From Capillimicrobium parvum (GTDB taxonomy: Bacteria > Actinomycetota > Thermoleophilia > Solirubrobacterales > Solirubrobacteraceae): DNA of 64,000 nucleotides. Positions 11,019 to 63,401 of this stretch are shown here, one piece after another. The number at the start of each line of letters is the position of its first letter. Position 1 is the stretch's first letter. Made by a program: the position numbers and the translations under genes. The DNA lies in contig NZ_CP087164.1 of NCBI RefSeq assembly GCF_021172045.1, positions 868,001 to 932,000 of the forward strand, written 5' to 3'. The notes beneath the pieces were generated by a model, which had not been told where the DNA came from, did no database searches, and saw only the letters and a program-made list of their open reading frames with translations.

Positions 11019-12402
11019 ACGCCCGCTCGGCGAGCTCGGTCAGTCGGGCGACCGTCGCGTCGATCTCCTCGTCGGTCGTGCGCGGGTTGATCGTGCACAG
11101 CCGCAGGACCGGGCGCCCGCGCAGGACCGTGGAGGTCGGCACCGCGTAGCCGTCGGCGACCGCGCGCGCCGCGATGTCGACCGCGCCGGCGCGCTCGTGG
11201 GCGAAGGTCACGACCGCGAGCTGCGCGGGCGTGACGATCTCCCAGCCGGGCGTCGCGCGCAGCGCCGCTTCCGCGCGCTCGGCCAGCGCGATGCCGCGGG
11301 CGACCGCGTCCCGGATCGCGTCCACGCCGAACGCCTTGATGGTCAACCACAGCTTCAGCGCCCGGGTGGCCCGGGTCAGCTGCGGGCCGCGGTCGCGGAA
11401 GTTCACCTCGCCGGTCGTGTCGCGCAGGTACTCGGGCTCCATGGCGAAGGCGGCGGCGAGCGCGCCGGGCTCGCGGACGAGCAGCGCGCCGACCTCGTAC
11501 GGGGCGAACAGCCACTTGTGCGGGTCGGCGGCGAGGGAGTCCGCGCGCTCCATCCCGTCCAGCAGCGCCCGGCCCTGCTCGGTCAGCGCCGCCGGGGCAC
11601 CGTACGCGCCGTCGACGTGCAGCCAGAGGCCTTCCGCGGCGGCGAGGTCGGCGAGCGCGGCCAGCGGGTCGACCGTGCCCGTGTTCGTCGTGCCCGCCGT
11701 GGCGATCAGGCAGAACGGCCGCAGGCCGGCGGACCGGTCGGCGGCGATGGCCCCCGCCACGGCGCCCGGCACCAGCCGGAACCCGCTACCGGTGGGCAGC
11801 AGGCGGACGCGGTCCGGCGCGAAGCCGAGGATGCGCAGCGCCCGGGTGATCGAGGCGTGCGTCTGGTCGGAGCAGTAGACGACGGCGTCCGGGTCGTGGC
11901 CGCCGAGCCGCGCCGCCCGCGCCGCCGCGAGCGCGGTGAGGCTGGACGCGGACCCGCCGCTGAGCAGGATCCCCTCGGTGCCGGCCGGCATCCCCAGCAT
12001 CTCGGCGAGCCAGTCGAGCACCACGAGCTCGAGCACCGTCGGGCCCGTGCTGCCCACCCAGGACGTGGCGATCGCGTTCATCCCGCTCGCCAGCGCGTCG
12101 CCGAGCATGCCGACCGGGCTGCTCGGGCTCGGGACGCGCGCGAAGAAGCGGGGGTGGTCGCCGTGCTGCATGTTGCGCAGCACGACGCCGGCGGCCAGGT
12201 CGAGCGCCTCGTCGAGGTCGCCCGGCGCCTCGGGCAGCGGCTCGCGCAGCCGCGCCTCGAGGGCGGCCCGCTCGCCGACGACGACCGGCGGCAGGTCGCG
12301 CAGGCCGGCGAGGTGGTCGACGACCATGTCGACGACGCGGTAGCCGAGCCGCCGCACCTCCTCCGGCGGGAGGCTGAGCGGCTCGTCGTGGTCGGGGGCC
12401 AT
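11017..12402 (-). CDS. PLP-dependent group II amino-acid decarboxylase
   Basis: The 461-residue protein belongs to the aromatic-L-amino-acid/glutamate decarboxylase-like family, fold type I. ADPHKWLF near residue 297 carries the Schiff-base lysine; HVDGAYGA supplies the Asp that contacts the pyridine nitrogen; SGGSASSLTAL is the phosphate-binding turn. The N-terminal LPPEEVRRLGYRVVDMVVDHL segment is typical of aromatic decarboxylases, so tryptophan, tyrosine or DOPA are plausible substrates. ATG 12402 is preferred; a GTG at 12432 adds 10 residues. It stands alone, convergent with the repeat-protein gene and divergent from the greA-like gene. Confidence 0.85.
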   Translation of the reverse strand: MAPDHDEPLSLPPEEVRRLGYRVVDMVVDHLAGLRDLPPVVVGERAALEARLREPLPEAPGDLDEALDLAAGVVLRNMQHGDHPRFFARVPSPSSPVGMLGDALASGMNAIATSWVGSTGPTVLELVVLDWLAEMLGMPAGTEGILLSGGSASSLTALAAARAARLGGHDPDAVVYCSDQTHASITRALRILGFAPDRVRLLPTGSGFRLVPGAVAGAIAADRSAGLRPFCLIATAGTTNTGTVDPLAALADLAAAEGLWLHVDGAYGAPAALTEQGRALLDGMERADSLAADPHKWLFAPYEVGALLVREPGALAAAFAMEPEYLRDTTGEVNFRDRGPQLTRATRALKLWLTIKAFGVDAIRDAVARGIALAERAEAALRATPGWEIVTPAQLAVVTFAHERAGAVDIAARAVADGYAVPTSTVLRGRPVLRLCTINPRTTDEEIDATVARLTELAERA

Positions 12403-12521
12403 GACGCGGCGGATGTTGGCAGACCCCGGCACGCCGGCTGCGACGCGTCCGGGGCCGCCGGCGGCGAAGATGGTGGGAAGACCCCATTCCGCGGTGGCGG
12501 TCCGACGGCCAGGATGGACCC

Positions 12522-13088
12522 ATGGTCAACCGTCTTCGTGATGGCGGCGCCGCGCATCGCGGCGCCGTCGCCGCTTCCGCAGGTCCCGTCCCGGTCGTCG
12601 CCGCCGGCCGTCCCGTGCTCACGGCGCGCGGGGCGGAGATCCTGGCCGCCGAGGTCGAGAGGCTGCGTGACCTCAAGGGCGAGGAGTTCCGCGCCCGCCG
12701 CCGCGACGCGCTGTCCGTGTCGGCCGCCGACGAGGACGCCCAGTTGGCGATCGGCGAGGACGAGGCCGTCATCGACGCCCGGATCGCCAACCTCGCGCAG
12801 CTGCTGCACCAGGCGGAGATCGTCGACCACGACGTCCGCGGCGAGGACATCGTCAACCTCGGGTCGCGGGTGCTCCTGGAGGATCTCACGACCGGAGCGG
12901 TGGTGGAGTACGAGATGGTCGCGTGGCACGACGGCGCGACCGCGGGCACGGTGTCCGCGGCCTCCCCGGTCGGGCAGGCGATCCTCGGCCGCGGCGTCGG
13001 CGACGAGCTGACCATCGGCCTGCCGGGCGGGCGGCAGCGCTCGCTGCGGATCGCCGGGCTCGACGACGTCGCGTCGCTGCACGCCTGA
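12522..13088 (+). CDS. GreA/GreB family transcription elongation factor
   Basis: The 188-residue protein has a helical N-terminal region (PVLTARGAEILAAEVERLRDLKGEEFR, about 32-58) and a C-terminal FKBP-like domain (DIVNLGSRVLLEDLTTGAVVEYEMV ... SPVGQAILGRGVGDELTI). This is the Gre arrangement, which stimulates transcript cleavage by stalled RNA polymerase. The tip acidic pair is plausible in SAADEDAQLAIGEDEAVID, but divergence from canonical GreA (about 160 residues) suggests a paralogue or an RNA-polymerase-binding Gre-like factor. Its last codons are part of a three-copy tandem repeat that continues beyond the stop. Confidence 0.75.
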   Translation: MVNRLRDGGAAHRGAVAASAGPVPVVAAGRPVLTARGAEILAAEVERLRDLKGEEFRARRRDALSVSAADEDAQLAIGEDEAVIDARIANLAQLLHQAEIVDHDVRGEDIVNLGSRVLLEDLTTGAVVEYEMVAWHDGATAGTVSAASPVGQAILGRGVGDELTIGLPGGRQRSLRIAGLDDVASLHA

Positions 13089-54182: not shown

Positions 54183-56126
54183 TCACGTTGAGGCGCAACG
54201 AGAGAACTGGGAGGTGTTGTGCGGCGCCGGGACGGGGGTCGCCGTGGCCGTCACCGCCTGGCCGGCGGTCAAGCTTGAGACCGTTGCGGTGAAGCCTGCT
54301 TCTCCGGCCGCGTCGGTTGTTGTTGTCGTGGTGGCGATGAGTTGCTTGCCTTCGCCTTCGCCGGACGCGTTGCATGATGGGCTGCGGAACACCTCGACGC
54401 GATAGGTGGTCGAAGGTCGCGCACTGGTGAGCGTGCCGGTGATAGTGGTCTGTGTTCTAATCGTGGTGACCGATTCGATGGCCGGCGCGGGCTGGTTGTC
54501 ATTTGCGCCAGCGAGCAGCGCGATGCCGAGTTGCGTGTTGTCGAAGATCGAGTTGCCGAGGATCGCGTTGCCGCGGATGACATTGCCGGTCGGACTTACC
54601 ACCGATCCGTCGACGCCGACGCCGGCACCGCCGTTGAAGGCGATCGTGTTGCCTTGGCCGGGGTCGCTGCCGCCGATCGTGTTGTCGTTTGCGCCGGCGC
54701 TGAGGGCGATACCGTCGCCGCCGTTCGGCATCGGGCTCTGTCCTCCACGTCCGGTCCCGATGAAGTTGCCCTGCACGAAGTCGCCGGACGCCGAGTCGGT
54801 CATCGCGATCCCTGCACCGCTGTTGCCGGAGATGACGTTGCGAAGGGCCGGGGTCGCGCCGCCGATACGAATGCCGGCATGCGTTGGGGAGGTCGGCACG
54901 CCCGCAATAAGGATGCCGGTGCCGTTGGATAGCGGCTGGGTGCGCGCCCGCGCGAGTCCGATGTCGTTGCCGGCGACGACATTTGTGGAGGCGGTCAAAA
55001 AGAAGGAAATGCCGGCCTCACTGTTGCCAGAGATCAGGTTGCCCGACGTTTCACGGTCGCCGCCGATCATGTTGCCTTTTGCGTCAATTTGTAGCTCAAC
55101 GCCGACCTTGTTGGGGAGGGCGGCGTCACCGTCAGGCGTCGTGCCGATGTAGTTGCCGATCACGTTGTTCGCGCGACGAAAGATGGTGATACCGCGGTCG
55201 TTGCCGGAGATGACGTTTCGATCGGCGGGGGTGACCCCGCCGATCGTGTTGGAGTTACCGGACACGAGCACGCCGTACTCGTTGGGCAACGCTCCGGTCC
55301 CAGCAAGGTTGGTGCCGATGCGATTTCCGGCGACGAAGTTCCCACTGGCGGATTGCGCGATGAGGATGCCTGTGCCGTTGCCGGAAATCAGGTTTCCGGC
55401 GCCCGGGGCGCTTCCGCCCACCGTCGAGCCTACGCCGCCAACAAAGACGCCAAAACTGTTGCGCATCTGAGCGCCGCCAGCCGCGTCAGTCCCGATGAAG
55501 TTGCCCTCGATCAGATTCGAGTCTCCAACAAAGACTCCAACGTCGCTGTTTGCGACGACGTTGCGATCGGCCGGGGTCGTGCCGCCGATAGTGTTCGACG
55601 GGCTGGTTGCCCGCACACCGATCTTGTTCCCGTTCAGCCGGTTGCCAGCGATCACGTTCGAGCCGTTGTCCATCAGCACGATCGCCTTCTCGAAGCCTGT
55701 CATCGATAGCGACGCGACCCGGCTGTGCCCGGCCGTGATTTTCAGCCCAGTCAGCTGACGGTCGTTCAGCTGACGGTCGTTCTCGAAGTCGTTTTCCAGC
55801 TCGATCAAGGGCGTGCCGGCAAACCCCGGCTGCGTTCTGCCGTCGATCGACAGGGGACCGGTGACCGATGGCAGGCCGGTACTAGCATCAGCCGCAGTGC
55901 GCACCAGGATCGTGTGCACGCCACGTCCCGGGATATCGAAATGGACCTCGTCGGCGCCCGCCTGCGAGTTGGCCTGGAGGATCGCCGATCGCAGCGAACC
56001 CCGGCCCGAGTCGTTGGTGTTCGCCACCGTGAAGACGTCCGCCGACGCCGATGCCGCACCAGCCAGCGCTCCGCTGGCCATCACCGTCGCCCACAACCCG
56101 ACTCTGCTGAGCCTCCTGCTGCCCAT
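54183..56126 (-). CDS. Exported parallel beta-helix repeat protein
   Basis: The 647-residue protein starts at ATG 56126 behind GAGAGGG; a signal peptide (LSRVGLWATVMASGALAGAASASA) ends near residue 30. The mature part opens with FTVANTNDSGRGSLRSAILQAN, a motif shared by many cell-surface beta-helix proteins, followed by about a dozen Asn/Gly-rich coils of the type N.I.GN.IG, including repeated NTIGG.TPADRNVI and N.ISGN.GI. A C-terminal beta domain (ITGTLTSARPSTTYRVEVF) ends the protein. Third positions are less GC-rich than in neighbouring genes, which suggests recent acquisition with the island. Adhesin or polysaccharide-binding roles are possible. Confidence 0.82.
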   Translation of the reverse strand: MGSRRLSRVGLWATVMASGALAGAASASADVFTVANTNDSGRGSLRSAILQANSQAGADEVHFDIPGRGVHTILVRTAADASTGLPSVTGPLSIDGRTQPGFAGTPLIELENDFENDRQLNDRQLTGLKITAGHSRVASLSMTGFEKAIVLMDNGSNVIAGNRLNGNKIGVRATSPSNTIGGTTPADRNVVANSDVGVFVGDSNLIEGNFIGTDAAGGAQMRNSFGVFVGGVGSTVGGSAPGAGNLISGNGTGILIAQSASGNFVAGNRIGTNLAGTGALPNEYGVLVSGNSNTIGGVTPADRNVISGNDRGITIFRRANNVIGNYIGTTPDGDAALPNKVGVELQIDAKGNMIGGDRETSGNLISGNSEAGISFFLTASTNVVAGNDIGLARARTQPLSNGTGILIAGVPTSPTHAGIRIGGATPALRNVISGNSGAGIAMTDSASGDFVQGNFIGTGRGGQSPMPNGGDGIALSAGANDNTIGGSDPGQGNTIAFNGGAGVGVDGSVVSPTGNVIRGNAILGNSIFDNTQLGIALLAGANDNQPAPAIESVTTIRTQTTITGTLTSARPSTTYRVEVFRSPSCNASGEGEGKQLIATTTTTTDAAGEAGFTATVSSLTAGQAVTATATPVPAPHNTSQFSRCAST

Positions 56127-56455
56127 GCCCGCCCTCTCTCGCTGACAGCCCCGGCGCGACCCGCGCGGCTCACCGGCGCGTAAACTCTCAGACCCTAGAC
56201 GTACGCTTGAGCCAGGCTGCGTCTGACGGGCTCCGTCCCTTCTGACGGGCACCGCACCCCTTTGCGACGCCCCGGTCCCGCGCCGGTTCCGCGACAGGGT
56301 CTTTGTCGGGCCTTGTTGCAGCAGCCTGGTTGGCACCTTCGCAGCTTCTTGCGGCACGCGGTGAGGTGATGGCCGTAACGCAGCGTCAGCGACCAGTAGC
56401 CCGGCCGCCTACCGGAAGCCTGTCGCTCCCACCGACGCGACACCGGAGCGACGAC
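56127..56455. other. Intergenic region without recognisable genes
   Basis: This 329-bp stretch separates two divergent genes. Frames on both strands are open but Arg/Pro/Cys-rich and unlike any family. Promoters for both genes must lie here; no box pair was convincing. Confidence 0.4.
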
Positions 56456-58698: not shown

Positions 58699-58805
58699 TC
58701 ACCGCCCGCCAGCTTCTCGAACTGGCCGGCCAGGGCGTGCAGGGCGCCGTCCGCGGTCTTGGCGGCCGACACCATCGGCGGCTCGAGGTCCGCCTTGGCG
58801 ACGAA
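58699..58805 (-). pseudogene. 3' remnant of a phage-like gene cut by an IS256 relic
   Basis: The segment FVAKADLEPPMVSAAKTADG then ALHALAGQFEKLAGG is open and helix-like but has no start; to its right the sequence becomes plus-strand IS256 transposase. It probably headed the small-gene run before the IS insertion. Confidence 0.35.
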
Positions 58806-59327
58806 CGGAGGCCGTCGAGCTCGTGCCCTGCTCGGCGCCCTGATGCGGGCGATCTTCACCGCCGGCTCGCTCCAACAGGCCCGTCAGCGGCTCGGCGGGG
58901 CGATCGCCCAACTCGAGCCCGGCTGCCGAAGCTCTCCGCGATGCTCGCCGACGCCGAAGACGACGTCCTCGCGTTCTACGCGTTCCCGGCCGAGCACTGG
59001 CCCAAGCTACGCAGCACCAACCCGTTGGAGCGCTTCAGCCGCGAGATCGGCCGCAGAACCGACGTCGTCGGCATCTTCCCCGACGACCCCTCGCTCATCC
59101 GGCTGGTCTCGATGCTCGCCATCGAGGCCAATGACGAGTGGCTGGTCGGGCGCGCCTACATCAGTCAGAAGTCGATGGCCGAAGTTCTTTCGCCCACGAA
59201 GGACCGGGCATTGACCATGACCAATGACGATCAGGAGGAGGCACCCGAGCTCGTCGCGGCCTGAGCAGCCACCACTTCACCGACGAGGTGAGCGCTGCTC
59301 TTACACCACATTCCGGGACTTGACTTC
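58806..59327 (+). mobile_element. IS256-family transposase relic with right terminal repeat
   Basis: Frame 1 reads ARALLGALMRAIFTAGSLQQ, and from about 58920 frame 0 continues LPKLSAMLADAEDDVLAFYA, AFPAEHWPKLRSTNPLERFS, EIGRRTDVVGIFPDDPSLIR and NDEWLVGRAYIS to a stop at 59264. This is the conserved C-terminal third of IS256 (Mutator-type) transposases, with the catalytic Glu region NPLER. TTACACCACATTCCGGGACT at about 59300 resembles the IS256 terminal repeat. The left two thirds and left repeat are missing and one frameshift is present, so the element is dead. Confidence 0.75.
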
Positions 59328-60030
59328 GAGCGCCGCGGTCACGAAGCGTGCCGCAGGCTGTGCGGTGACACGGCGTGCTCGATGCCGGCCCGGCGGGCGA
59401 GCCGGCGGACCACCCGGTGCCCGGCGAAGCGGCTCATGCGCTCGCCGTCGTCGCGGAGGAAGGTCGCGCCTGTCCTCGCGGCGGTCGAGCAGCGCGTTTA
59501 GCGCGCCGGCCGTCGGCGGCGCGAGCGCCACCGTCTGCCGCCCTTGCGCCGCAACGCGAGCGTGCAGTGCCCTCTCTCGAGCCCGAGGTCGGCGACGTTC
59601 GCGCCGACGACCTCCGACACGCGCAGCCCGTTCAGCGCCAGCAGGCACACGAGCGCGTGATCCCGCAGGCCGGCGCTAGCGCCCTCGTCGAGTAGCGCGC
59701 GGAGCCCTTGCGATCCACTCCGAGGCGCGGCGACTCGTCGCCGACACGCGGGCGGCGCACGCGCGTGACGGGCGAGCGCTCGATCGCGCCCTCGTCGAGG
59801 GCGTACGCATAGAAGCCTGACAGCGCCGGACAGCCTGCGCGCGACGGTCGAGGCCGCCACACTGGCCTCCTCGGCGGCGCGCACGAACGCGTCGACGTGG
59901 ACGGCGCCGCGCTTCGAGCGCATCGACGCAGAGGCGGGCGAGGAACGCGCCCCAGTCGCGTGCGTAAGCCTCGCGCATCGCCGGCTTGTAACCGGCGAGG
60001 AACGCCGTCGCGATGCTGTCGCTTCCACGC
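59328..60030 (-). pseudogene. Tyrosine integrase relic with several frameshifts
   Basis: Pieces in three minus-strand frames join into one recombinase: SIATAFLAGYKPAMREAYAR with DWGAFLARL (N-terminal core-binding), LSGFYAYALDEGAIERSPVT, GLRDHALVCLLALNGLRVSE (with the first catalytic Arg), VALAPPTAGALNALLD and SPHSLRHA with VTAALE (His-x-x-Arg box). At least four indels are needed. After VTAALE the sequence runs straight into the IS256 terminal repeat, so the IS inserted here and removed the catalytic Tyr. Confidence 0.7.
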
Positions 60031-60270
60031 CGGCGACGTCGAAGGCGGGCTCGATGCGCACGACGCGCTACTACCCCGCCGGCGGGCGCGATCGGCGGCC
60101 GGCGATCCACGTGCAGCGATTGCAGGTGTCTCGACGTCCGCCGAGCGCTACGATTTCGCCCGGACGCTCGACGTGCCGTTGAGCGTTGCTGGACCGGCGG
60201 TCCCTGGTCCGGGACGCGAAGCCGCGCGCGACGATCCGGGCACCCGAACCGCGAGATCACCGGAGGGGGC

Positions 60271-62220
60271 GTGAACCCGATCGAAACGCCAATCACTGCC
60301 GCCGTCCATCCACTCGAGCCGCTGAGCGCCGAGGAGATCGCACGGGCCACGGGGACCTTGCGCACCGAGCGCGACCTCGGCCCGAGCTGGCGCTTCGTGT
60401 TCGTGTTGCTCCACGAGCCGCGCCGCGCCGCCGCCGACTGGTCGTCCGGGGAGAGCGTCCCGCGTGAGGCGTTCGTCGTGCTCCGCGACCGCGAGTCGCG
60501 CGGCACGTACGAGGCGCTCGTCTCGCTGACCGACGACCGTGTCGTCTGGTTTCAGCGCAAGTCGGGCGTCCAGGCCCAGATCACGTTCGAGGAGTTCATG
60601 CAGTGCGAGCAGGTCGTGCGCTCCGACCCGCGCTGGCAGGAAGCGATGCGGGCGCGCGGCGTCGAGGACTTCTCGCTCTGCATGATCGACCCCTGGGCCG
60701 CCAGCCACACCATGCCCGATGACCATCCCGACGAGCGGCGCATCCTGCGGCCGCTGACGTGGGTCCAGTCCGAGCCGGGCGACAACGGGTACGCGCGGCC
60801 CGTCGAAGGGCTGATCTGCGTCGTGGACTGCGACGCCATGGCGGTCGTCGAGGTGATCGACCACGGGATCGTCCCCTTCCCGCCGCGGGCCGGCAACTAC
60901 GTCCCGGACCTGATGACGCGCGCGGGCAACGTCCCGGCGTTCACGGCGCTGCGCGACGACGTCCGGCCGATCGAGATCACCCAGCCCGAGGGCGCCAGCT
61001 TCACCGTCGACGGCCACGCCGTCAGCTGGCAGAAGTGGCGCGTGCGCATCTCCTTCAACGCGAAGGAGGGCCTCGTCCTGCACGACATCGGCTACGAGGA
61101 CGGCGGCCGTGTCCGGCCCATCATCAGCCGCGCGTCGCTGTCGGAGATGTACGTGCCCTACGGCGATCCGGCGCCCACGCACGCGTTCAAGAACGTCTTC
61201 GACATGGGCGAGTACGGGCTCGGCTGGCTGGCGAACCCGCTGACGCTCGGCTGCGACTGCCTCGGCGAGATCCGCTACTTCGACGGCGTCGTCAACGACC
61301 AGGACGGGCAGCCGGTCACGATCCCCAACGCGGTCTGCATGCACGAGGAGGACGCCGGCATCGGCTGGAAGCACACGAACTTCCACACCGAGGAAGTCGA
61401 GGTCCGGCGGCTGCGGCGGCTCGTGATCTCGACGATCGTGACCGTCGGCAACTACGAGTACGGCTACTTCTGGTACCTCTACACCGACGGCACGATCGAG
61501 TACGAGGTCAAGCTCACGGGCGTGATCTCGACGGGCGCCGTCGCACCCGGGCAACGGCCGCGCCACGGCACGCTCGTCGCGCCCGGACTGTACGGCCCGC
61601 ATCACCAGCACTTCTTCTGCGTGCGCCTGGACATGGCCGTCGACGGCGTGCAGAACACCGTCGTCGAGGTGGACTCCGAGCCGCTGCCCCCCGGCCCCGA
61701 CAACCCGCTCGGCACGGCGTGGGTGACGAAGCGCACCGAGCTGCGCACCGAGTCCGAGGCCCAGCGGATCATCGACCCGCTGCGCGCGCGCACGTGGCGC
61801 ATCGAGAACCCGAACGTGCGCAACACCGTCGGCGATCCGGTCGCCTACAACCTGATCCCGGGCGAGAACGTCCTCCCCATGGCCGAGGCCGACTCCGTGC
61901 AGGGCCGGCGCGCGGGCTTCGCCGCCAAGCACCTCTGGGTGACCCCGTACGCGGAGGGTGAGCGCTTCGCCGCCGGCGACTACCCCAACCAGCACCCCGG
62001 CGGCAGCGGCCTGCCCGAGTTCACCGCCGCCGACCGCCCGGTCGCCGACACGGACCTCGTCGTCTGGTACACGTTCGGCGCCCACCACGTCGTGCGTCCC
62101 GAGGACTGGCCCGTGATGCCGGCGACGCACATCGGCTTCAGGCTCAAGCCGAGCGGGTTCTTCGACGGCAACCCGGCCCTCGACATGCCGCGCAGCGCCG
62201 CGCACCACTGCCACGGCTGA
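60271..62220 (+). CDS. Copper amine oxidase (primary-amine oxidase)
   Basis: The 649-residue enzyme oxidises primary amines to aldehydes, giving H2O2 and ammonia, using copper and self-generated topaquinone. The catalytic base Asp is in NVFDMGEYGLGW (about 310), the TPQ precursor Tyr in TVGNYEYGYFW (about 393-396), copper histidines in GPHHQHFFCVRLD (about 445) with the third near the C-terminus. N-terminal N2/N3 domains precede. Start is GTG 60271 behind CGGAGGGGG. No signal peptide, so cytoplasmic, as for Arthrobacter-type enzymes. Adjacent to an acetylpolyamine amidohydrolase on the other strand. Confidence 0.93.
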   Translation: MNPIETPITAAVHPLEPLSAEEIARATGTLRTERDLGPSWRFVFVLLHEPRRAAADWSSGESVPREAFVVLRDRESRGTYEALVSLTDDRVVWFQRKSGVQAQITFEEFMQCEQVVRSDPRWQEAMRARGVEDFSLCMIDPWAASHTMPDDHPDERRILRPLTWVQSEPGDNGYARPVEGLICVVDCDAMAVVEVIDHGIVPFPPRAGNYVPDLMTRAGNVPAFTALRDDVRPIEITQPEGASFTVDGHAVSWQKWRVRISFNAKEGLVLHDIGYEDGGRVRPIISRASLSEMYVPYGDPAPTHAFKNVFDMGEYGLGWLANPLTLGCDCLGEIRYFDGVVNDQDGQPVTIPNAVCMHEEDAGIGWKHTNFHTEEVEVRRLRRLVISTIVTVGNYEYGYFWYLYTDGTIEYEVKLTGVISTGAVAPGQRPRHGTLVAPGLYGPHHQHFFCVRLDMAVDGVQNTVVEVDSEPLPPGPDNPLGTAWVTKRTELRTESEAQRIIDPLRARTWRIENPNVRNTVGDPVAYNLIPGENVLPMAEADSVQGRRAGFAAKHLWVTPYAEGERFAAGDYPNQHPGGSGLPEFTAADRPVADTDLVVWYTFGAHHVVRPEDWPVMPATHIGFRLKPSGFFDGNPALDMPRSAAHHCHG

Positions 62221-62279
62221 AATCCTCGGCGGGTGTCGAGGTCCTCAACGGCCTTGACCGGCGCGAGACGCCCAGACCG

Positions 62280-63401
62280 TCAGTTGACCGTGGCGGGGTG
62301 AGCAGGCAGCTCGTCAAGGTTTTTTTCCGCGCGCTTGATGGCATCGTCCTGATGCGGTTGGAGATCCATGTACGCCATGGCGCTGAAGACCGCGGTGAAC
62401 GGGTCCTCGACACGCTCTTGCGTGCCGAGCAGCTCCTCCATGACCGCCACGCCGCAGAACGGCACATGGGCCGAGGAGTACCCGCCCTCGTGGATGAGGA
62501 CGAGCCGGCCGTCGCAGACCTCGGCGGTGACGTCGAGCAGGATCCGCGCCATCCGCGCGAAGCCGGGGCTGGTGACACCCATGACCGCGAACGGGTCGCA
62601 CATGCTCGCGTCGAACCCCGAGGCGACGAGCACGACGTCGGGGCGGAAGCGCCGGATCGCCGGCGCGACGACGCGCTCCAGCGCCGCCTCGTACGCGCCG
62701 TTGCCCGAGCCCGGCGGCAGCGGGACGTTCAGGGTTGTGCCGACGCCGTCGCCTACGCCGGTGTCGGCGACCTGCCCCGAATCGACGGGGTAGAGGTTGT
62801 CCTGGTGCAGCGAGATGGCGAGGACCGTGGCGTCTTCGTAAAACGCATGCTCGGTCCCGTTGCCGTGGTGCACGTCCCAGTCGACGATGGCGACGCGCTC
62901 GGCGCCGAGCACCTCACGCGCGTGGAGTCCGGCCAGCGCGGTGTTGCCGAAGATGCAGAAGCCGCGTCCGAGGTCGCGCTCGGCGTGATGCCCAGGAGGT
63001 CGCACCAGCGCGTACGCGTTGTCGACGTCGCCTCGCATGACCGCCTCGGTGGCCGTCATCGCGCCGCCCGCCGCGAGAGCCGCGACCTCGTAGCCGTTGG
63101 CGCCGAACGGGGCGAGCTCGCCGCCATCGCCTCCGCCTGCCGCGCTGAGGTCCTTGATCCGTTGTACGTACTCGGGCGTGTGCAGCCGCAGGATCTCCTC
63201 GTCCGTGGCGGGACGGGCCTTGAGCTCGACGCATTGGTCGAGGAGGCCGGTGACGTCGAGCAGGTTACGGAAGCGGCGCTTGGTCGCCGGGCTCTCCCCG
63301 TGCATCTCGGGCTCGATGAGCCCGCCGGCCGACATGAAGCCCGACCCCGTGCCCGTGTCATGCCAGGCGTATCGCTCGTCCCAGAGGAATCCGGTGGTCA
63401 T
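62280..63401 (-). CDS. Class II histone-deacetylase-like acetylpolyamine amidohydrolase
   Basis: The 373-residue zinc hydrolase has RPPGHHAERDLGRGFCIFGN (catalytic His pair), VDWDVHHGNGTEHAF (zinc Asp and His), ASGFDASMCDP (second zinc Asp) and HEGGYSSAHVPFC (transition-state residue). The class II layout and extra loop are shared with bacterial acetylpolyamine deacetylases. Deacetylated polyamines or other amines would be substrates for the neighbouring amine oxidase, so the two may form a polyamine-use module. The genes are convergent, with 59 bp between stops. Confidence 0.9.
   Translation of the reverse strand: MTTGFLWDERYAWHDTGTGSGFMSAGGLIEPEMHGESPATKRRFRNLLDVTGLLDQCVELKARPATDEEILRLHTPEYVQRIKDLSAAGGGDGGELAPFGANGYEVAALAAGGAMTATEAVMRGDVDNAYALVRPPGHHAERDLGRGFCIFGNTALAGLHAREVLGAERVAIVDWDVHHGNGTEHAFYEDATVLAISLHQDNLYPVDSGQVADTGVGDGVGTTLNVPLPPGSGNGAYEAALERVVAPAIRRFRPDVVLVASGFDASMCDPFAVMGVTSPGFARMARILLDVTAEVCDGRLVLIHEGGYSSAHVPFCGVAVMEELLGTQERVEDPFTAVFSAMAYMDLQPHQDDAIKRAEKNLDELPAHPATVN

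Follow-up and report, generated by a model that had tools for sequence, protein, structure and literature searches.

A 64-kb window of the 5.95-Mb single-contig Capillimicrobium parvum genome (868001-932000; positions below are those of the window unless stated otherwise) carries two genes that are considered here as a candidate module for the use of N-acylated primary amines. One encodes a copper/topaquinone (TPQ) primary-amine oxidase and the other an amidohydrolase of the class II histone deacetylase (HDAC) family, hereafter the deacylase (Table 1). An initial annotation of this DNA had described both as full length, convergent and equipped with all catalytic residues, and the profile matches and residue alignments given below agree with it on each of these points. 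The plus strand of the inter-gene region was folded for signs of a terminator, and no unusually stable hairpin was found at 62215-62285 (z -0.75).

Table 1. Features of the amine oxidase-deacylase locus and its flanks.
Feature	Position	Strand	Basis
Mutator-family transposase tail (profile 302-377 of 379)	58737..59264	+	profile match
Tyrosine recombinase, weak partial match (profile 13-64 of 172, below curated cut-off)	59498..60061	-	
Copper/TPQ primary-amine oxidase, AGAO (phenylethylamine oxidase) type, 649 aa, intact	60271..62220	+	family profiles, alignment
Convergent gap, 59 bases	62221..62279	.	frame ends
Class II HDAC amidohydrolase, HdaH type, 373 aa, intact	62280..63401	-	family profiles, alignment
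Integrase N-terminal piece (PF14659, 26.6 bits vs cut-off 22.6)	genome 932000-932290, just right of window		profile match

The oxidase frame begins with a GTG codon preceded by ggaggggg at 60262-60269. Its product matches PF01179 over the entire profile (1-407/407), displays the AGAO-like N2 and N3 domains (PF21994 and PF02728) and reaches 936 bits against NCBIfam NF008559, for which the cut-off is 651. AGAO itself (PDB 1av4, 1rjo) aligns with residues 11-649 of the window protein at 556 bits, and alignment to 1av4 shows that Y395, D311, H445, H447 and H606 are present; we take Y395 to be the tyrosine precursor of TPQ, D311 the catalytic base and the three histidines the copper ligands. The TPQ motif, the copper histidines and the base Asp are shared with AGAO, while the gate tyrosine of AGAO (presumably Y296) aligns with V309, so the substrate may differ. 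By profile and alignment the window oxidase is an AGAO-type copper/TPQ amine oxidase. The closest named relatives come from Solirubrobacter (71% and 69% identity), in a listing that may omit the own genome and near copies. The NG86 ratio of nonsynonymous to synonymous substitution rates (dN/dS) was estimated against one ortholog each, at about 0.42 for the oxidase (G011) and 0.35 for the deacylase (G035), and the codon-position pattern agrees with both genes being intact. These values are consistent with the selection that had initially been deduced from intactness, although they are averages over the entire divergence and do not date selection to the present locus.

The deacylase frame opens with an ATG at 63401 and its product matches PF00850 at 2-294/298. 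Alignment indicates a complete catalytic set, with the His pair, zinc ligands and Tyr represented by H138, H139, D176, H178, D264 and Y308; the counterparts in HDAH are H142, H143, D180, H182, D268 and Y312 (PMC4784309; this article, PMC11532494 and PMC10364317 are cited throughout from excerpts). The same set is found in the known HdaH enzymes (PDB 1zz0; Pseudomonas aeruginosa PA3774; Klebsiella pneumoniae HdaH). Scores were 358 bits for the HDAC-domain protein 8szt and 341-348 for the HDAH entries (348 for 1zz0), and alignment with HDAH-type enzymes extends from residue 1-3 to about 344, N-terminal region included; the top score, 362 bits for two-domain HDAC6, is the sum of two partial matches (175 + 188). 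These alignments assign the deacylase to the HdaH type, and its membership in cluster 1b is suggested by its similarity to 1b enzymes. The assayed members of that cluster are lysine deacetylases or small-molecule amidases, according to the excerpted survey (PMC11532494). The name acetylpolyamine amidohydrolase (APAH, cluster 4), given to this gene in the initial annotation, was ruled out. APAH (PDB 3men) shares PF00850 and zinc chemistry with the window protein, but belongs to another subfamily and scores 127 bits, vs 348 for HDAH. Besides, neither of the gatekeeper motifs, PIS in bacterial APAH and PEG in HDAC10 (PMC11532494), is present in the deacylase, which has P270-F271-A272 at this site with F271 where HDAC10 has Glu; a Glu at this position was found in none of nine aligned HdaHs.

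These assignments bear on the substrate. The initial annotation had proposed a route from acetylated polyamines, with deacetylation first and oxidation second. In favour of this, the G035 HdaH (67% identical to that of the window) has as neighbours a CN-hydrolase and a pair of related binding proteins, of which one matches PotD and the other is 65% identical to the first. A Burkholderia plasmid also carries an HdaH with genes annotated as glutamine synthetase, aldehyde dehydrogenase and glutamine amidotransferase, a set that resembles the Puu putrescine route. The HDAH of Bordetella does act on acetylpolyamines, albeit weakly (0.06-0.18 vs 223-450 nmol/mg/s for an APAH), while the acetylpolyamine activity of PA3774 was unmeasurable and the growth of its mutant on acetylcadaverine was similar to wild type, as far as the excerpt reports (PMC4784309). 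Bacterial polyamine deacetylases are placed, in the excerpted survey, only in a cluster other than that of HdaH (PMC11532494). With a deacylase that groups with HdaH and not APAH, the missing Glu gatekeeper and an oxidase of the phenylethylamine type, a polyamine substrate is possible yet disfavoured, and we consider this version of the pathway unlikely.

Another reading is that the HdaH acts as a xenobiotic amidase similar to propanil or dimethoate hydrolase, the oxidase then using the freed amine. Both hydrolases (PDB 9gku, 9gkw) are small-molecule amidases placed in HdaH subcluster 1b, and the title of a reference in the same article states that methylamine arises from dimethoate hydrolysis (PMC11532494). 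Amidases or CN-hydrolases adjoin some HdaH relatives; a CN-hydrolase stands directly beside HdaH in G041 and G960. Conversely, the window deacylase scores somewhat lower against propanil hydrolase (PrpH, 325 bits) and dimethoate hydrolase (DmhA, 323 bits) than against HDAH, no genes of a pesticide or other xenobiotic pathway were seen in its vicinity, and natural N-acylamines account for the same context. We therefore regard a xenobiotic role as very improbable.

We then looked at how often the two families meet. HdaH loci were counted at E <= 1e-85, which yielded 72 loci in 55 genomes, and all of these genomes (29 + 26) were scanned for copper amine oxidases, with 41 loci recovered in 24 genomes (three partial on draft contigs, one split). 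Adjacent pairs occur at 3 of the 72 HdaH loci, or 3/35 in genomes with both families: the window, G263 and G598. Both pairs outside the window genome (2/54 HdaH-bearing genomes) are on the same strand and tightly packed. The G263 oxidase gene ends in an ATGA that also contains the start codon of the deacylase gene; immediately upstream lie genes for an M20 peptidase and a member of the RidA family, and a potassium transporter gene is found downstream. In G598 three consecutive genes of the same strand encode the oxidase, a 139-aa membrane-type protein and the deacylase, whose gene begins before the small one has ended; a divergent LysR regulator is present and ABC transport genes follow. G598 is also the only one of 22 genomes of its order with an HdaH. 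The surroundings of both pairs fit the use of amides and amines, although they name no substrate. A fourth case, outside the 55-genome count, was found in Blastococcus sp. DSM 44205, where an oxidase, an amidase and HdaH are followed by urease beta/gamma, alpha, F and D genes and another amidase. The recurrent pairing that the initial annotation had suggested looking for is thus present in three other genomes.

Under uniform placement, 0.11 pairs within 1 kb are expected outside the window genome and 2 were observed (P about 0.006), an estimate that rests on the 24/55 genomes holding both families. Pairs can be missed in the many genomes that are fragmented drafts, and can be created by the clustering of catabolic genes. 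Trees were built from 98 oxidases and from 49 deacylases, before a further 37 HdaH loci had been added. The four pairs do not group in either tree: supported branches force four changes in the oxidase tree and at least two in the HdaH tree (four in the best tree). The exact positions of two paired oxidases (G263, G598) are uncertain owing to their long branches. As the four pairs lie apart in the trees, the pairing seems to have arisen repeatedly. The pairing is real and rare, and it was apparently put together more than once.

The C. parvum genome has three HDAC-family loci and five for copper amine oxidases, of which one is split, and only in the window are the two families adjacent. The fifth oxidase gene (C1:2857394-2858574) is split over two overlapping frames, and an intact relative, 87% identical to it, lies near C1:2423 kb. 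A second HdaH (L015 7300-9961, near C1:3181-3184 kb) is 58% identical to that of the window and lies next to a divergent gene for a pyridoxal phosphate-dependent decarboxylase, which matches diaminobutyrate decarboxylase below the cut-off; the G024 relative of this HdaH is 83% identical and has different neighbours. G778 (1.3 Mb) has three HdaH genes, two of them adjacent and divergent (L187 9044-11473).

The recurrent pairing, together with HdaH clusters that resemble amine or amide catabolism, supports the idea of deacylation followed by oxidation, so that this part of the initial proposal gains ground while its polyamine substrate does not. The best reading of what the pairs have in common is that HdaH would free a primary monoamine and the oxidase would oxidise it. 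We give close to an even chance to the two window genes forming such a two-step module for N-acylated primary amines. In the first step, the HdaH-type zinc amidohydrolase would take the acyl group, most likely acetyl, off a small amine; tyramine, phenethylamine or another aromatic monoamine would be the probable product. In the second, the oxidase would turn the free primary amine into aldehyde, ammonia and hydrogen peroxide, a reaction class established for the copper/TPQ oxidase family, although its substrate here is only predicted. The module would supply this soil-type bacterium with nitrogen from acylated amines and would imply that both genes are expressed jointly in C. parvum.

In order to place HdaH in a wider context, we considered its neighbourhoods in other hosts. 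In a plasmid collection, HdaH was found in 28 records (E 1e-60) and the oxidase in 59 (E 1e-100); both families occur in one record, NZ_CP120639.1, with the genes about 24 kb apart. Twenty of the 28 plasmid HdaH neighbourhoods were examined, 18 of them annotated, including two close Shinella relatives. Among the annotated ones, a transporter lies within three genes of HdaH in 16, an aldehyde dehydrogenase is found in the stretch in 10, and hpa or monoamine genes are seen in 4. One Streptomyces plasmid HdaH (L270 8956-10128) has a polyketide-cluster-like setting, with a beta-ketoacyl synthase-type gene upstream of it and a thioesterase-domain gene immediately after it.

One of these four, in Klebsiella aerogenes NCTC10006, is a monoamine-regulon locus for the utilisation of aromatic amines, with moaE and moaF among its annotated genes. 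Its HdaH, 46% identical to that of the window over 337 residues, is encoded beside an MFS gene (MFS-hdaH) and together with a monoamine regulator, a permease, an oxidoreductase, a dehydrogenase named FeaB, an arylsulfatase and moa genes. This HdaH contains the helix LLEFIQQQQ, which PMC11532494 quotes for the K. pneumoniae enzyme that was assayed, and the two proteins are therefore probably orthologs. No DNA-level match to the Klebsiella-type hdaH was found in 20,395 E. coli records. The HdaH genes of Pantoea piersonii and Agrobacterium tumefaciens also have hpa genes as neighbours and, as a weaker case, that of Bacillus badius lies near a 4-hydroxyphenylacetate 3-hydroxylase-family gene. A class II histone deacetylase gene of Serratia plymuthica is down 2.54-fold in an ipdc mutant, along with the hpa cluster, at nearby locus numbers (PMC10364317 Table 1); since other genes fall too, this drop is consistent with such a setting and no more. 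In the G911 genome, an ABC transporter is the neighbour of HdaH. Altogether, these contexts raise the possibility, which we put forward tentatively and with some doubt, that bacterial HdaH-type "class II histone deacetylases" would in many hosts be entry enzymes of N-acyl-monoamine catabolism. They would pass tyramine- or phenethylamine-like amines to copper amine oxidases in the actinomycetotal pairs and to monoamine or 4-hydroxyphenylacetate pathways in Klebsiella, Pantoea, Agrobacterium and Serratia, the link to the oxidase having arisen several times independently.

Several observations weigh against the two-step module. The pairing is rare; the P value rises to 0.033 when a 5-kb gap is allowed; it was smaller on the first 29 genomes, the 26 added ones bringing no further pair; and the uniform-placement null overstates significance because catabolic genes cluster. 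The window pair is convergent and hence not one transcript. A profile scan detected copper oxidases in 0/20 plasmid HdaH neighbourhoods and in neither 49 kb around the Klebsiella hdaH nor 41 kb around that of Agrobacterium, and the hpa-linked HdaHs are just about 45% identical to the window HdaH. The closest HdaHs (67-68%) stand beside acyl-CoA-type (G935) or lactonase-type (G958) genes and not amine genes, and several HdaH enzymes are efficient acetyl-lysine deacetylases (PMC11532494, PMC4784309). Around named oxidases, with flanks of up to 10 kb, many of them short, an HDAC-like gene was seen at 1/80 loci, which does not seem clearly above chance. Finally, the nearest orthologs of the oxidase and of HdaH occur in different genomes, and the window oxidase is without an adjacent permease.

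The last point recalls the more usual company of the oxidase. A strong match to it was found in 5/61 genomes of the window's group, the window genome included. In the four others, three intact orthologs have an APC permease directly upstream, these permeases being 60-67% identical to one another, while the fourth (G033; L040 8719-10664) is in two frames, as if broken, with no permease seen beside it. The permease profile is matched in the flanks of 25/80 named oxidase loci; at 5 of these 25 the match is strong and lies immediately upstream. At the window locus, the spot of the permease is occupied by the weak recombinase match; no permease remnant was found beside the oxidase (best E 0.68, away from the gene), and no neighbourhood is conserved between the window and the oxidase relatives around the oxidase gene.

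These data give weight to a different explanation, in which a stand-alone monoamine oxidase that has lost its permease and an HdaH lysine deacetylase or generic amidase are chance neighbours, juxtaposed through recombination by mobile elements that are now dead. Remnants of transposase or integrase genes are indeed present both left and right of the pair, and since the pair is convergent, lies among such remnants and has unpaired nearest orthologs, a chance neighbourhood is a serious rival. The two tight same-strand arrangements and the additional cluster elsewhere, with their separate origins, and the excess of pairs over the uniform expectation argue in the opposite direction. On balance we hold chance juxtaposition to be a substantial possibility, if not a probable one.

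Should HdaHs act on N-acylated monoamines, many bacterial genes named "histone deacetylase" would encode enzymes of catabolism, and a direct biochemical test of HdaH substrates is offered by the pairs with copper amine oxidases. The natural substrate of HDAH is called unknown and the function of PA3774 elusive in the excerpt of PMC4784309, while a 2024 survey, as excerpted, assays HdaH enzymes mainly as lysine deacetylases (PMC11532494). No published account of the HdaH-oxidase pairing, or of N-acylamine use by such enzymes, was found in the titles and abstract starts that searches of open-access papers listed.

The initial annotation had presented the two genes as the cargo of an island among dead mobile genes. 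The mobile remnants on both sides agree with this, while island borders and a foreign composition were not demonstrated. The GC content at third codon positions is 0.963 in the oxidase (higher than in 33/38 window genes) and 0.893 in the deacylase (higher than in 11/38), so that by this measure the composition of the pair is host-like and not foreign. A 286-base stretch elsewhere in the genome is 74% identical to the region of the Mutator transposase tail. On the right, the integrase piece lies in a frame (L009 about 12000-12848; genome 932000-932848) without a whole integrase, and no match to any mobile family was obtained in the remaining right-flank frames scanned; a DUF2127 protein and a hydrolase follow and then dnaX and recR, about 5-7 kb downstream. 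No tRNA was found in the window. Farther left, a 724-aa protein with NosD-type repeats is encoded on the minus strand (54183-56357), in the 2-kb stretch of lowest GC content of the window (0.647).

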